48,528 nt of DNA, taken from NCBI GenBank assembly GCA_903910555.1, contig CAIVZZ010000011.1, positions 1-48,528 on the forward strand, in the 5' to 3' direction. The notes under the pieces are model-generated. The model did not search any database. It was not told where the DNA came from and saw only the letters and a list, made by a program, of their open reading frames with translations. The stretch comes from an uncultured Gemmatimonadota bacterium. GTDB taxonomy: Bacteria > Gemmatimonadota > Gemmatimonadetes > Gemmatimonadales > Gemmatimonadaceae. A program made the position numbers and the translations under genes. Positions 6,086-48,156 of this stretch are shown here, in pieces; the stretch's first letter is position 1, and each line of letters opens with the position of its first letter.

Positions 6086-7647
6086 GGCGCGCCCTCGTAC
6101 ACCCAGTACGGAAGGCCCGTGCGGCGTCCGGCCTTGTCGGCGTCTTCCTTCGTATCAAACGGTCCGTAGACGACGCGGAACACCGGCGTGCGGTCGCTTG
6201 TCCCCGGCACCACGCGAACGGGGTGGCCGTCGACCGTGATCGATGCGGCCAGCGTCTTGGCACGATCCTCTGAGAGCAGCGCGGCAAAAGAGAGCGTGAA
6301 GGTCCCGCGCTTTGAAACTGCTGGTGCCGTCGGCGCTGCGGCGGGCGCGGGAGCAGGCGCAGCGCCGCGCTGCGGCGCTGCATCGGGCGGTCGCGCGCCG
6401 GCTGGCGTTCGCGCAGGCGCGGGCGCAGGCGGGATCACCGCCGACGCGGCTGCGGCCTGCGCGGCGGCCGCTTCCTGAACGGCGTGAGCGCTATCGCCCG
6501 CGACGGCAGTCGAATCGGAATCAGGATCGAAGCTGACGGGAACGTCCAGCCCCTTGGCGCGAGGGCGGAATCCGTTCCATCGAACAAGCGTCCACAGATC
6601 GGCGGCGCCCGAAAGAAAACGTGCCCGTTCTTTGTGCGTCTCCGCGTCCATGATCACGACGTCCGTATCCTGCAGCACGGCGAGGCCGCCGTCCGGGCCG
6701 AGCAGTGGAAGGTCGGCGCGCCAGCGCGAACGCACGGTTCCAATCGCGCGCGAAGTCCCGATCGCAATCACCCGAACGGAATCGCCGTCGGCGGCACGCG
6801 CGAGCAGATAGCGGCCATCGGGATCCATGCGCAGCGCGGTCGCGGTGCCGCCAATGTCGATCGTCCCCTCAATCTCTTCCGTAAAGCGATCGACTACGGT
6901 GAGCGATTTCTTTCCTTTCACGGCGACAAAAATGCGGTCACCGCTCGGCGTCGCGACGGCGTCGAGCGCCTGGCCTGGGAGCCACACCGTGCGCGTCCGC
7001 GTCAGATCGCGCGTGCGCACGCCGGCCAGTCCGGAATCGCCAATAAAGTAGAGACGGTCGCCGAGTTCGGTGCGGACGAGAAGATCCGCATGCGGAACCG
7101 AAGTCGTTTCGACGATGCGCGGCTCAGGTGGATGCAGCCGGCGCAACTCGTGCCGCTTCCCGTTGTCGCTCAGCAAAATCAGCGAACCGTCGGGGAGCGG
7201 AATCAGTCCGCGTGGTTCAGGCTCGGGTGTGAATGTCCAGGTTCCGCTTGGCGTGAGCCGGCTGACGTCATGCTTGGGCGTGATGCCGTATATCGCCCAG
7301 CCATCGGCGGTCGCGAGGCCGGTGAGCGCAGTCGTCGCGGCGGCGGATGCACTGCCAACCCGCATATCGAGGCGGCCCGGGACGCCTCGCACGTCAACGT
7401 ATGCGAGCGAGCCCTGCGCGTCGTCGAACGCGAGTGTGGATTGCAGGGCAGGGACACGCGAGGGCGACGACCAGAGGACCGAATCGGAGCCCCAGCGATA
7501 CGCTTTCGCCGTGCCGCCGGCCGCGACGAGCCGGATGAATACGGCGTCCGGCCCGTTCGTTCCGCCCGAGAGCGGAGGGTGCGCGCCCGGTGCGCCGCGC
7601 GAGCACGCGGCGAGGGCGAGGAGCAATAGCAGCGTCGGTTGGCGCAC
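6082..7647 (-). CDS. Lipoprotein with beta-propeller-like region and C-terminal SPOR domain
   Basis: The chosen GTG start gives a lipoprotein signal with lipobox LALAAC about 14 residues in. An upstream start would add 25 residues and overlap the preceding gene. The central ~330 residues have repeated beta-strand patterns like YVTN/quinoprotein propellers, for example SGDRIFVAVKGKKSLTVVDR. A Pro/Ala-rich linker follows. The last ~75 residues form a SPOR domain (VFRVVYGPFDTKEDADKAG). It is probably anchored in the outer or inner membrane facing peptidoglycan. It overlaps the next SPOR gene by 4 bases, so the two peptidoglycan-binding proteins are probably made together. The propeller assignment is inferred from pattern only. 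Confidence 0.72.
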   Translation of the reverse strand: MRQPTLLLLLALAACSRGAPGAHPPLSGGTNGPDAVFIRLVAAGGTAKAYRWGSDSVLWSSPSRVPALQSTLAFDDAQGSLAYVDVRGVPGRLDMRVGSASAAATTALTGLATADGWAIYGITPKHDVSRLTPSGTWTFTPEPEPRGLIPLPDGSLILLSDNGKRHELRRLHPPEPRIVETTSVPHADLLVRTELGDRLYFIGDSGLAGVRTRDLTRTRTVWLPGQALDAVATPSGDRIFVAVKGKKSLTVVDRFTEEIEGTIDIGGTATALRMDPDGRYLLARAADGDSVRVIAIGTSRAIGTVRSRWRADLPLLGPDGGLAVLQDTDVVIMDAETHKERARFLSGAADLWTLVRWNGFRPRAKGLDVPVSFDPDSDSTAVAGDSAHAVQEAAAAQAAAASAVIPPAPAPARTPAGARPPDAAPQRGAAPAPAPAAAPTAPAVSKRGTFTLSFAALLSEDRAKTLAASITVDGHPVRVVPGTSDRTPVFRVVYGPFDTKEDADKAGRRTGLPYWVYEGAP

Positions 7648-11493: not shown

Positions 11494-11629
11494 AACGGCG
11501 GGGCTCGTAGCTGACGGCGGTAAGACACAAGCTGTAAGAGCGGAACGCGGCCGAGGGAACCGTTCCCCAGGCCGCGCTCCGTCTTACAGCTGTGCACTTA
11601 CAGCGGTGAGCTACGAGCCCCCGCCGTTA
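11494..11629. repeat. Long imperfect palindrome (about 58-bp arms)
   Basis: The arm from 11494 and the reverse complement of the arm ending at 11629 match at roughly 50 of 58 positions; both begin AACGGCGGGG. The 19-base centre contains a smaller palindrome, GGGAACCGTTCCC. It starts 4 bases after the rplI stop codon, so as RNA it would form a very long hairpin that could end or protect the rpsF-rplI transcript. There is no T-tract, so a classical intrinsic terminator is not shown. It occupies most of the gene-free region between rplI and rsfS. Confidence 0.8.
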
Positions 11630-18619: not shown

Positions 18620-19770
18620 GCGTGTCGCGGCCGGCGTACGACCTGCTGCTGGCGTGTGCGGTGTGGGAGCCGTCGGCGCCGCAACTCGATCTCATCCGTA
18701 CGCGCGCGGAGGCGCGCATCGATTGGAATAACTGGCTGGAGCTCGTGCACGCGCACCGGTTGGTGCCGCATGCGCAGCGCGCGCTCGGCGCGGTGCGCGC
18801 GATCTCGCCGCCGCCGGTGGCCGAAGCATTGATGCGGGAAACCGTCACGATCGCCGCGCACTCGCTGGCGCGGACACAGCAGCTGGCTTCGCTGCTGCAG
18901 GCCCTCGATCGCGACGGGGTGCGCGCGCTGCCGTTCAAAGGTCCGGCGCTCTCGCTCGCGGCATACGGCGAGCTCGGCGTGCGCGACTCTGTCGATCTCG
19001 ACGTGGTCGTGTGTCCGCCGGATATCGATCGCGCCCGTGAATCGCTGCTGCGCGCGGGTTATACGCCGCGCACAGAAATGTCGCCGGCGCAGGAGCGGAC
19101 GCTGCAGCGGAGCTTCGGCCATTTTCAGTACGCGGCGCCTGACGGCGGAGCGTGGGTCGAGCTGCATTGGCGGTTCGCGGCGCCGCGCTACCCGTGGTCG
19201 ATTCCAGCGGAAGAGGTTTTCGCGCGCGCAATCACTGTCGATCTCGCGGGCGTGAAGACCGCGAGCCCGGATGCGACCGATCAGCTGCTGCTGCAGCTGA
19301 TGCACGGCGCGCGGCACCAATGGGAGCGGCTGGAATGGCTCGTGGCGTTTGCACAGCTGCTGCGGCACGCACGCGAGAACGAAGAAGTGCTGATCGAGCG
19401 CGCGAACGCGAACGGGTCGTCGCGCGCGCTCGGACTCGCGCTTCGGCTCGCGCACGATCTGCTCGGCGCGCCGCTCTCGCCGCGGTTGTCCGCACTCGCC
19501 GGCGAGGAACGGACCGCGGCGCGCGCCGCGCAGATCGTCGGGGCGATCGAGGCCGCGAAGTTCTCGACGAACCAGCCTTACGTTTTCAACCTGTCGATGA
19601 TGGATCGCAGCGTTGATCGTGCGCGCTACATCGCGCTTAGCGTGCTGTCACCGACAGAGCGCGAGTGGGAACTCGTGCGTCTCCCCGACTGGCTCGTGTT
19701 CCTGTACTACCCGATCCGGATCGTGCGCGTGACGTGGCTCAGGGTGCGATCGCTGTTCGTCAGACGTTGA
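18616..19770 (+). CDS. Nucleotidyltransferase-family protein of the lasso cluster
   Basis: A 384-residue protein of the uncharacterised nucleotidyltransferase family. The core has LPFKGPALSLAAYGELGVRD (about residues 103-123), then SVDLDVVV with the metal-binding Asp pair, then WVELHWRF. In the pseudomycoidin lasso system a kinase and such a nucleotidyltransferase act in series to decorate the phosphorylated tail with sugar, and here the two genes are likewise adjacent and overlapping. GTG start. The 3' end overlaps the 3' end of ychF, on the opposite strand, by 11 bases, marking the end of the cluster; no transporter follows. Confidence 0.82.
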   Translation: MSVSRPAYDLLLACAVWEPSAPQLDLIRTRAEARIDWNNWLELVHAHRLVPHAQRALGAVRAISPPPVAEALMRETVTIAAHSLARTQQLASLLQALDRDGVRALPFKGPALSLAAYGELGVRDSVDLDVVVCPPDIDRARESLLRAGYTPRTEMSPAQERTLQRSFGHFQYAAPDGGAWVELHWRFAAPRYPWSIPAEEVFARAITVDLAGVKTASPDATDQLLLQLMHGARHQWERLEWLVAFAQLLRHARENEEVLIERANANGSSRALGLALRLAHDLLGAPLSPRLSALAGEERTAARAAQIVGAIEAAKFSTNQPYVFNLSMMDRSVDRARYIALSVLSPTEREWELVRLPDWLVFLYYPIRIVRVTWLRVRSLFVRR

Positions 19771-20860
19771 AGCGGAAAAGCAGGACGTCGCCGTCCTGCA
19801 CGATGTACTCCTTTCCTTCCGACCGCACGACGCCCTTTTCCTTTGCGCCTTTCCAGCCGGCGTTCGCGGTGAAGTCGGCGAACGACACCGTCTCGGCGCG
19901 AATGAATCCGCGCTCGAAGTCTGTGTGAATGACGCCCGCGGCCTGCGGCGCAGCATCGCCGCGATGGATCGTCCACGCGCGGACTTCCTGCTCGCCCGCG
20001 GTGAAATACGTTTGCAGTCCCATCAGGTGGTAGCCGGCGCGAATCAGGCGGTCGAGTCCGGCTGACTCTAGACCGAGCGACGCGAGGAAATCTTTGCGGT
20101 CCTCGGGCGGCAGCTCAGCGAGCTCCGCTTCGATGCGCGCGGAGAAGGGAACGACTTCCGCGTGCTCATCGGATGCGGCGATCGCCGCGCGAAGCGCCTG
20201 GACGTGCGGCCCTTCTTCGCCGGCGAGTTCCGAATCCGTCACGTTCGCCGCGTAGAGCACGGGCTTCACCGTGAGCAGCTGCAGCGGCGCGAGCGTGGCG
20301 ATTTCTTCTGGAGTGAGCTTCGCATGCCAGAGTCCCTTACCCTCGGCGAGCGCTGCATTCGCTTTCTCGAGCGCGGGTAGCTCGGCGAGGGCTTCTTTCT
20401 CGCCCGTGCGCGAGGCGCGCTTCACCTTGTCGAGACGTTTTTCGACGGCGGCAAGATCGGAAAGTGCGAGCTCGAACTCGATCACCTCACGATCGCGCAC
20501 CGGGTTCACCGCGCCCATGACGTGCGTGACGTCGGGGTCCTCAAAACAGCGCACGACATGAACAATGGCGTCGGTTTCGCGGATGTTCTGGAGGAATTTG
20601 TTGCCGAGGCCCTCGCCGTCTGCTGCTCCCTTGACCAAACCGGCGATGTCAACGAATTGGACGACGGCGGGAACGGTGCGCTTGGGCTGAACTATGGCGG
20701 CGAGCGCGTCGAGTCTTGGGTCGGGGACTTCTACCATTCCGACGTTGGGTTCGACGGTGCAGAACGGATAGTTGGCGGCTTCGGCTTTGGCGGAAGTCAG
20801 CGCGTTGAATAGCGTGGATTTGCCTACGTTCGGCAGGCCGACAATTCCTATTTTTAGCAT
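19760..20860 (-). CDS. ychF: Ribosome-binding ATPase YchF
   Basis: YchF is an Obg-family P-loop protein that prefers ATP and binds ribosomes. The 366-residue length is normal. G1 is GLPNVGKST at residues 8-16, G3 is [19 protein letters not shown], and the G4 position reads NVTD, in line with ATP preference. The C-terminal TGS domain is clear ([18 protein letters not shown]). It ends tail to tail with the lasso nucleotidyltransferase. Its upstream region now contains one arm of the IVS-like element, so its native linkage to pth is interrupted. Confidence 0.98.
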
Positions 20861-20873
20861 TCTAAATTAAAGG

Positions 20874-20919
20874 CGAGTTGACTGTTAACCACTAACTGTT
20901 GGTCGGTTAACGAAGGTTT
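20874..20919. repeat. Left arm of inverted repeat (element 1)
   Basis: The arm contains the core GTTAACCACTAACTGTTGGT followed by CGGTTAAC. It matches the reverse complement of 21446-21490 except at about 4-5 positions. It lies 13 bases upstream of the ychF start. Confidence 0.85.
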
Positions 20920-21037
20920 TCTGTCCTCGCGGCCAACCGCGATTGATTCATCGCGCAAGGAAAGTTAACGACCTGCGCTGGAACGATGACACTTCTTTTC
21001 CCGCCTCGGCATAACGTGTGCGGAACCGGAGGTGGGC

Positions 21038-21457
21038 ATGCAGGACTACAAAAAACTGAGCGTGTGGGCAAAATCACATCAGCTTGTGCTGCTCATCTAC
21101 AGCGCGACCGGAAGCGTCTCCGAACGCAAGTTTCCCGGGCTCACTTCTCAAATACGACGCGCCGCTGCTTCGATTCCGGCGAACATTGCAGAGGGATGCG
21201 GCCATACAGGATCGCGAGAACTCGCGCGGTTCCTCGGAATAGCGGTCGCATCATCGTTTGAACTCGCCTACCATCTCCAGCTCGCCGCTGACCTCGACAT
21301 GATGTCGAAATCCGAGTTCGCGCGACTTGACGCGCGCACGGAGCAAGTGAAGCGAATGCTCAGCTCGCTCTTGGTGAAGGTCCGTCAGAACGCCGAGCTT
21401 CGCGAGCGCAAACGCCCACCCAAACCCGCAAAGTCTTTGACGGAGAACCTTGGTTAA
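21038..21457 (+). CDS. Four-helix bundle protein (S23/IVS family)
   Basis: A 139-residue protein of the 23S rRNA intervening-sequence (S23, TIGR02436) family, small pentameric four-helix bundles with a basic surface; their role is unknown. Family marks are YKKLSVWAKSHQL, QIRRAAASIPANIAEGCG, and ELARFLGIAVASSFELAYHL. The ATG has GGAGG about 7 bases upstream; a GTG two codons earlier is less likely. The Lys/Arg/Pro-rich tail runs into the right inverted-repeat arm. It is the only gene on the plus strand within a minus-strand operon region. Confidence 0.9.
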   Translation: MQDYKKLSVWAKSHQLVLLIYSATGSVSERKFPGLTSQIRRAAASIPANIAEGCGHTGSRELARFLGIAVASSFELAYHLQLAADLDMMSKSEFARLDARTEQVKRMLSSLLVKVRQNAELRERKRPPKPAKSLTENLG

Positions 21458-21490
21458 CCGACCAACAGTTAGTGGTTAACAGTTCACTCG
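21446..21490. repeat. Right arm of inverted repeat (element 1)
   Basis: Reverse complement of the arm at 20874-20919. It overlaps the last codons of the four-helix-bundle gene and the stop codon of pth. Confidence 0.85.
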
Positions 21491-22080
21491 TCGGACACTT
21501 TGCCCTCGCGCCCAGAAAATGCATTCATCACCGGCAGTATGCCTTCAGCAACCCAAAGCTCAACAGCTTCAACAAACGAAGGCAGCAACTCCCGAACCGT
21601 GCCTGCCTCGGCCTTTCCAAAGTTGCCAAGCACATAATCCGACAGCACCGCCACCTTTCGTTCGGACTCTGCCGGCCCCACCCCCACTCGAAGCCGCGCA
21701 TAGTCCATCGTGCCGAGCGAAGCCTGGACACTCTTCAACCCATTGTGTCCACCCGCCGACCCCTTCGCGCGGAACCTGTACCTCCCAACCGGCAACTGCA
21801 CCTCGTCCGACACCACGAGCAAATCCTGCGCTGCCGACCAAAACGGCCGCCGCGCGTACCGCACCAAAACTTTCCCACTCAAGTTCATGAACGTCTGCGG
21901 CTTGACCAGTCGCACCCGTTTCCCGTTCACCGTTCCGGTCGTGACGTGTGCCTCGCCGTCCTTTTTCCAGCCGTCAAAACGCCAAACGTCGGCCAGGTGG
22001 TCAATGACCCACCAGCCGACGTTGTGACGGGTTCCGGCGTACTCGCGGCCGGGGTTTCCCAGCCCGACGATGACCTTCAC
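21484..22080 (-). CDS. pth: Peptidyl-tRNA hydrolase
   Basis: Pth releases peptides from prematurely dropped peptidyl-tRNA. The 198-residue length is normal. Conserved residues are visible: Asn in VGLGNPG, the catalytic His in TRHNVGWW, KPQTFMNLSG, the Asp in VVSDEVQLPVG, and GSAGGHNGLKS. GTG start. The stop codon is inside the right arm of the adjacent inverted repeat, so element insertion, if that is what happened, left the protein intact. It follows rplY with a 35-base gap. Confidence 0.97.
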   Translation of the reverse strand: MKVIVGLGNPGREYAGTRHNVGWWVIDHLADVWRFDGWKKDGEAHVTTGTVNGKRVRLVKPQTFMNLSGKVLVRYARRPFWSAAQDLLVVSDEVQLPVGRYRFRAKGSAGGHNGLKSVQASLGTMDYARLRVGVGPAESERKVAVLSDYVLGNFGKAEAGTVRELLPSFVEAVELWVAEGILPVMNAFSGREGKVSDE

Positions 22081-42962: not shown

Positions 42963-42986
42963 AGCGCGGCCGCTCGCGTAGCGACG

Positions 42987-43035
42987 GCGAATGGCGACTG
43001 GTAAATGGCGACCTGGTGCATGGCGAGTGGCGAGC
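42987..43035. repeat. Left arm of inverted repeat (element 2)
   Basis: Begins GGCGAATGGCGACTGGTAAA. It matches the reverse complement of 43588-43636 with about 3 mismatches, and the solo copy at 24063-24111. Confidence 0.88.
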
Positions 43036-43058
43036 CGCTCGTAGACCAGGCCATGAGA

Positions 43059-43508
43059 TTACCACGACTCGAATTTTCGGCCGGTGCGTTCTCTGATCCG
43101 CGTGAGCAGACCGATTAGCATGCGGCAGATTCGAGCGAGCCGCTCCAGGCGATCGGCGAACAGCGCCGTGTCATCCGCCGATCGAAGCAGGCGATACCAA
43201 GTCATGGCTTCGCGCGCTGAGCCGAGGGCGTAGGAAAAGAATCGCACGCGGTCGGCCGATGTTGGCCGTCCGTATCCCTCTGCGACGTTCGCCGCGATCG
43301 ATCCGACAGCGCGAACTAACTGTCCCTGTGCCTCCTCGTCCGCACCCGCGCGATCGAAGCGCCGGATGTCATCGCGCACCAACTCGACAAGGAAAAGCGC
43401 CTCTCGAAAGCAGTGCAGCCGCCAAATCGGATCACCCGTGACCGAATCGGGCTGCCGCGCCTCCCACTCCCTGATTGCCGTATCCGCGGCCGCCGTGTCA
43501 TTCGCCAT
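43059..43508 (-). CDS. Four-helix bundle protein (S23/IVS family)
   Basis: A 149-residue protein with the family core LVRAVGSIAANVAEGYGRPT and RFFSYALGSAREAMTWYRLL, preceded by a helix WRLHCFREALFLVELVRDD. The ATG at 43508 is chosen because codons upstream run into the inverted-repeat arm; a 41-residue extension from 43631 is formally open. No clear ribosome binding site. Compared with the first four-helix protein in the window it is quite different in sequence, so they are not a recent duplication. Confidence 0.85.
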   Translation of the reverse strand: MANDTAAADTAIREWEARQPDSVTGDPIWRLHCFREALFLVELVRDDIRRFDRAGADEEAQGQLVRAVGSIAANVAEGYGRPTSADRVRFFSYALGSAREAMTWYRLLRSADDTALFADRLERLARICRMLIGLLTRIRERTGRKFESW

Positions 43509-43587
43509 GCGAACAACTTGCCGTTCGGGCAGCCGAAAACCTTCACCAAATGTTTGCACAAGGAATCGATCGCTTGCCTTCGAGCGA

Positions 43588-43636
43588 CTCGCAAATCGCC
43601 ATGCACCAGATCGCCATTTACCAGTCGCCATTCGCC
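43588..43636. repeat. Right arm of inverted repeat (element 2)
   Basis: Reverse complement of 42987-43035 at about 46 of 49 positions. It lies 21 bases from the stop codon of the PQQ-dependent dehydrogenase. Confidence 0.88.
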
Positions 43637-43657
43637 CTCTAGCAACCAGTCGCCGCG

Positions 43658-47781: not shown

Positions 47782-47871
47782 CGGAGCGGGAGGGATTCGA
47801 ACCCTCGATACAGGTTGACCCCGTATGCCGGTTTAGCAAACCGGTGCCTTCAGCCTCTCGGCCACCGCTCC
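47782..47871 (-). tRNA. tRNA-Ser (anticodon GCT)
   Basis: A 90-base tRNA with a long variable arm, as expected for Ser. Acceptor GGAGCGG pairs with CCGCTCC, with discriminator G. The anticodon loop is TTGCTAA, flanked by ACCGG/CCGGT-type stems. T arm GAGGG TTCGAAT CCCTC. No encoded CCA. Confidence 0.96.
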
Positions 47872-47960
47872 CCACGATCTGAGCAGAGTAAGGTAGCGTC
47901 AGGCGGGAGGTTGTGGGAGTGCAATTTTCGAGTATCGAGTCTTGAGTCTAGGGTCTGTGG

Positions 47961-48025
47961 TCTAGCGTCTGAAAACCCGCAGTACGCAGTTGTGAACTGC
48001 AAACTGCGGGTTCTCAGACGCTAGA
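47961..48025. repeat. Near-perfect 65-bp palindrome
   Basis: Arms of 31 bases beginning TCTAGCGTCTGA, with about 3 mismatches and a 3-base centre (GTG). It stands alone between the two tRNA-Ser genes. Weaker symmetry continues outward in GTCTTGAGTCTAG-like words. There is no T-tract; function unknown. Confidence 0.85.
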
Positions 48026-48071
48026 TACAAGACTCCAGACACAGACTGTCACGTGTATCGCCAGCATCCTA

Positions 48072-48156
48072 CGGAGGGTACAGGACTCGAACCTGTAAGC
48101 GACTTTCGCCGCGCCAGTTTTCAAGACTGGTGCAATAGCCATTCTGCCAACCCTCC
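48072..48156 (-). tRNA. tRNA-Ser (anticodon TGA)
   Basis: An 85-base tRNA with a long variable arm. Acceptor GGAGGGT pairs with ACCCTCC, discriminator G. The anticodon stem CCAGT/ACTGG closes loop CTTGAAA with anticodon TGA. T arm ACAGG TTCGAGT CCTGT. Confidence 0.96.

Follow-up and report, generated by a model that had tools for sequence, protein, structure and literature searches.

The unit formed by an S23-family gene and its inverted repeat between pth and ychF, in the 48,528-nucleotide stretch of DNA analysed here (the window), is probably the master copy of a REPIN-like family, with the S23 protein acting in trans to recognise its own hairpins and spread them; we put the probability of this reading at roughly two in three. 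The association of S23 genes with hairpins is well supported, and we infer the mechanism by which the hairpins would spread. The window comes from a genome of 3.2 Mb in 32 contigs (G000, hereafter the source genome), and most of the genomes with which it was compared are metagenome assemblies. The features of the window are as follows.

11494-11628, no strand: stand-alone hairpin of the S23 family L001, about 135 nt.
19760-20860, minus strand: ychF (GTPase), flanking host gene (PF06071/PF01926).
20874-20925, plus strand: left arm of the window S23 element, family L004; inverted repeat of 52 nt at 90%, with dispersed copies elsewhere, beginning 14 nt upstream of the ychF start codon.
21038-21457, plus strand: S23/IVP-family (four-helix bundle) gene, ATG at 21038 or alternatively GTG at 21032, identified by PF05635, TIGR02436 and an AF2 model.
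21439-21498, minus strand: right arm of the window S23 element, with its core at 21439-21490 and a tip in common with stand-alone copies to about 21498; contains the pth stop codon at 21484-21486.
21484-22080, minus strand: pth (peptidyl-tRNA hydrolase), flanking host gene (PF01195, E 1.5e-59), with its last codons within the element tip.
42983-43049, plus strand: left arm, 67 nt long, of another S23 element (family L008), with 88% complementarity to 43573-43639.
43059-43508, minus strand: second S23-family gene, of a variant subfamily with a longer N-terminus (PF05635 at 43113-43409, E 1.5e-14; TIGR02436, E 4e-19).
43573-43639, minus strand: right arm of the second S23 element, forming the inverted repeat with 42983-43049.
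47938-48047, no strand: stand-alone hairpin of the S23 family L005, between the tRNA genes at 47782-47871 and 48072-48156.

The arms at 20874-20925 and 21439-21490 are 52 nt long, 90% complementary and 513 nt apart, so that an earlier note, made from the sequence of the window alone, was right to see an inverted repeat here and slightly short in giving it arms of 45 bp with few mismatches. The same note assigned the enclosed gene to the S23 family, and the gene indeed scores far above the curated cut-offs of both PF05635 (E 3.8e-31, 107.9 bits against 33.8) and TIGR02436 (E 1.9e-31, 108.5 bits against 24). As the note had remarked, the right arm includes the pth stop codon, a TGA that reads on the complement of 21484-21486. 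The tip past this stop (CACTCGTCG.ACACT) is also present in stand-alone copies elsewhere, which places the right end of the element at about 21498 and means that the element provides the final codons of pth. In an inverted-repeat scan of the whole window, the two highest-ranking repeats both surround S23-family genes, the one at 43 kb ranking first and the one between pth and ychF second. The family of the 43-kb element, L008, has three stand-alone hairpins elsewhere in the scanned sequence of the source genome. The only known RNA families found in the window are tRNAs.

The source genome carries 11 S23 genes, and all of them, as the earlier note had proposed to check, are enclosed by an inverted repeat of their own. 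The arms are 45 to 118 nt long, or form a longer composite, and their sequence is different for each gene. The score for inverted repeats in the flanks ranges from 58 to 175 for the 11 S23 genes. In 1,089 other genes of the same genome its 99th percentile is 29, and a single one exceeds 32 (score 62, a gene inside a repeat cluster). These control genes, together with 296 control positions, rule out a chance inverted repeat. In the 1.30 Mb of the source genome that were scanned for repeats, about 40% of the genome and picked to contain the S23 genes, inverted repeats enclosing 250 to 1,500 nt stand out at 12 places, and S23 genes are found at 11 of the 12. The twelfth (L106, C13:15161-17128) was considered as a further element and rejected, being a cluster of several hairpins of the L010 type and repeats around ordinary genes.

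The arms of the window element reappear elsewhere in the source genome as gene-free inverted pairs about 60 to 70 nt apart, and the stand-alone hairpins of the S23 arm families in general are 100 to 250 nt long and contain no gene. In the 1.30 Mb, 79 hairpins reach 50 bits or more: 51 stand alone and belong to families, 4 lie beside S23 genes, and the other 24 are singletons, most of them short and terminator-like. When the hairpins are clustered, each family takes in the arms of one S23 gene and no more (the window family has 18 stand-alone members), and the 1.30 Mb contain no multi-copy hairpin family without an S23 gene. Stand-alone cognate hairpins accompany 10 of the 11 S23 genes. In the exception, L007 (1457-1864), the S23 gene is N-terminally truncated at its arm and there are zero stand-alone hairpins, as expected of a dead master copy. 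Long stems result when the arms or the stand-alone copies are folded, in agreement with the stem that the earlier note had expected of the arms. What that note missed is that the arms belong to dispersed repeat families, each with a single cognate S23 gene, so that the unit works in the manner of a REPIN/RAYT system and not of a lone IVS.

REPINs are extragenic, hairpin-forming inverted doublets with a variable spacer and compensatory changes, and the RAYT gene that goes with them is present in one copy, lies between repeats of its own type and has a largely vertical phylogeny (PMC3116915). The S23 system shares with them the dispersed extragenic inverted doublets that form hairpins, the variable spacer with compensatory changes, the single cognate gene per family, flanked by the same repeat, and the mostly vertical inheritance of that gene. 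It differs in that the cognate gene encodes a four-helix bundle and not an HUH (Y1) tyrosine transposase, in its longer arms (45 to 118 nt), which are often made of 7- to 8-nt words, and in its copy number, the S23 hairpins occurring in dozens of copies, whereas REPINs reach hundreds.

S23 genes are present in 105 of 200 genomes of Gemmatimonadota. They are absent from two genomes of the same genus (G015 and G003), and in 400 kb of these, 200 kb from each, there is no hairpin of at least 60 bits, compared with 28 in 700 kb of the source genome; this natural-absence test covers the two related genomes. A genome with one S23 gene (G006) has, besides terminators, essentially one repeat family, made of its own arm words. 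Arms of the source-genome type are dispersed only in the source genome, G002, G012 and G010, while the arms of the element in G001 occur at many places in that genome and in 0 of 11 others. The arms of an S23 gene from a Holophagales genome likewise occur at more than 10 other places in it and are absent from three genomes of other groups. The S23 genes between pth and ychF are found in 12 genus members and form one clade (support 0.90), so that the gene at this locus has been inherited in place. Its arms score a median of 29 within a genome and 10 between species. In some species they are decayed, and G012 is one of these although it retains stand-alone copies. The pth-ychF gene is old and vertically inherited within the genus, so that the recent movers in this lineage are the hairpins and not that copy of the gene.

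The plan of the element is that of the 23S rRNA IVSs that carry an S23/IVP ORF in Leptospira and Coxiella, with complementary arms around a PF05635 gene in about 430 to 620 nt and the ability of the arms to form a long RNA stem (PMC4990558). The earlier note had recognised this plan outside rRNA, and it recurs in all 11 elements of the source genome. Its description as a free-standing IVS-like element holds for the plan only, because an element outside rRNA is not an IVS by definition: the window element lies between the protein genes pth and ychF, and the arms of the S23 elements, unlike those of IVSs, are dispersed families in the same genome. The 23S gene of the source genome aligns with its family from end to end, with 2,954 bases for the 2,925 positions of the model, and thus has no large insertion and no IVS. 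These results bear on an RNA-only explanation, in which the arms would serve for the excision of the insert from transcripts by RNase III and the S23 ORF would be a passenger. The 28-bp stem of the Coxiella IVS, excised by RNase III (PMC4990558), provides a precedent with the same plan, and the stems of the elements in the source genome are long. However, this explanation accounts neither for the one-to-one tie of stand-alone copies to S23 genes nor for the absence of hairpins from S23-free genomes, and it sits badly with a 23S gene free of IVSs, so we regard it as very improbable. In CPR bacteria, PF05635 ORFs are scattered over several 16S and 23S insertion sites (PMC11270868), which is consistent with occasional insertion of a mobile unit into rRNA.

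Comparison of filled and empty sites, another check named in the earlier note, gave examples for both kinds of unit. The stand-alone hairpin C4:70441-70582 of the source genome has no counterpart in G012, whose orthologous site has 8 nt between the aligned flanks instead of 187. The S23 gene in the order nrdB-S23-nrdA on a Nostoc edaphicum plasmid faces an uninterrupted nrdB-nrdA pair in Calothrix NIES-4105, at 85% identity. Two NIES-4105 plasmids also lack an S23 insertion that is present in Calothrix 7716. The flanks of the compared filled and empty pairs are diverged, and no clear target-site duplication, of the kind that marks classical DDE insertion sequences and MITEs, was found at them. 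Duplicated plasmid copies of Calothrix brevissima were rejected as markers of the element ends, having a longer block of similar genes in common. The note's suggestion of a small mobile unit agrees with the empty sites of hairpins and S23 elements alike, but has to be shifted, for the pth-ychF locus, from the vertically inherited gene to the recently moving hairpins.

The hairpin L110 8187-8336 (C4:68187 in the source genome) has an orthologue in G012 (L130, near 6700-6930) with the same centre and entirely different arms, both changed together, so that arms can be rewritten with their pairing kept. Across 22 copies of the window family, the consensus fold has 58 pairs, of which 24 vary on both sides; over the whole fold, 91% of cells pair, a count made without a tree-aware null. 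As for their placement, none of 54 hairpins lies inside an ORF, against 68% of random stretches; they are intergenic or over gene ends, with 19 between convergent and fewer (6) between divergent genes.

Such placement, the conserved pairing and the retention of the C4:68187 hairpin at the same site in G012 with other arms could also be expected if S23 were a sequence-specific nucleic-acid-binding regulator and the hairpins its functional sites, at mRNA 3' ends, as terminator-like or processing signals, kept by selection and not by self-spread. We consider this unlikely, given that one genome can hold up to 11 parallel S23-hairpin families, that individual hairpins, or all of them, are missing from close relatives, that the arms turn over completely between species within one genus, and that S23 genes sit at unrelated places, for example within nrd and cas gene sets.

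The AF2 model of the window S23 protein (pLDDT 92.9) is a four-helix bundle with fold matches to 2gsc (Z 19.3) and 2rld (Z 17.2), each of which has five chains. It also matches Avd, both alone (4dwl, Z 14.4) and in its complex with reverse transcriptase (8ub8, Z 14.3), and the homology between PF05635 and Avd has been noted before (PMC10053308). Across 31 sequences, seven residues (W10, S45, N49, E52, G53, S72 and E75) never vary. No nuclease or polymerase motif is recognised in S23, and a host partner enzyme must therefore be assumed. Searches of the source genome for the reverse transcriptase domain RVT_1 (PF00078) and the Y1 transposase (PF01797) gave no match, which excludes an Avd-like reverse transcriptase route in cis and RAYT-driven REPs; the S23 system thus shares the fold of Avd with the diversity-generating retroelements and differs from them in having no reverse transcriptase gene in the genome.

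Replication template switching alone is able to maintain palindromes. The hairpins might accordingly be moved by another agent, be it an HUH nuclease, a reverse transcriptase or replication slippage alone, with S23 as captured cargo or a hitch-hiker, a possibility that the lack of a known catalytic motif in S23 would favour. We think it quite improbable, since neither Y1 transposase nor RVT_1 occurs in the source genome, each hairpin family has an S23 gene of its own, and comparable enclosure was met in only 1 of the 1,089 other genes.

For S23 as the spreading factor, we envisage the following mechanism. One S23 gene lies between the two arms of its cognate palindromic repeat, and the same arms occur elsewhere as gene-free hairpins. 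An S23 oligomer, as an Avd-like four-helix bundle, may bind the folded cognate hairpin, either as single-stranded DNA or as RNA, and the bound protein would promote the copying of the hairpin to new intergenic sites, aided by host enzymes. The S23 gene itself would mostly stay put and pass on vertically, while the hairpin population would turn over alongside it.

The arms-around-gene plan extends beyond this genome. Of 54 S23 loci elsewhere, 34 score above the maximum of the 296 control positions and 43 above their 99% level; the remaining 11 have no flanking inverted repeat above that level. The loci above the controls include members of Gemmatimonadota, Planctomycetota, Bacteroidota, Acidobacteriota, Chloroflexota and Actinomycetota, and several S23 copies on cyanobacterial plasmids show the plan as well. 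This suggests that S23 genes with dispersed cognate hairpins are an unrecognised, tiny mobile repeat system of at least six bacterial phyla. No match to S23 was obtained in a search of phages, and no literature linking S23 with dispersed repeats was found among openly licensed papers, preprints not included.

The arms of many S23 elements are made of degenerate 7- to 8-nt words such as TAGGGAG, AGCTGTT and TCAGTTA. Two of the elements on cyanobacterial plasmids (L222 1200-2000 and L218 1380-1920) occupy cas6-cas4 and nrdB-nrdA sites, and their arms consist of 7- to 8-nt words that resemble known cyanobacterial short tandem repeats. Intergenic repeats of the heptamer TAACTGA have been described in Beggiatoaceae, Cyanobacteria and Bacteroidetes in a paper that does not mention S23 (PMC4679880). 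Such heptamer repeats, including the cyanobacterial STRRs, are like the S23 arms in their short words (for example, TCAGTTA and TAGGGAG), and a link between the two, which we propose here from this resemblance, is a lead. In a wider and tentative reading, about which we are more doubtful than confident, S23/IVP proteins might mobilise hairpins across bacteria in general without a nuclease or polymerase of their own, and rRNA IVSs, with or without an ORF, as well as many heptamer-built intergenic repeats, would be special cases.

If S23 spreads its cognate hairpins, the S23 family would gain a function, and rRNA IVSs and many unexplained intergenic repeats would gain a source. S23 would then be a second, unrelated gene family to have reached a REPIN-like logic. 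Each S23 gene predicts a repeat family of its own, which makes the question testable.
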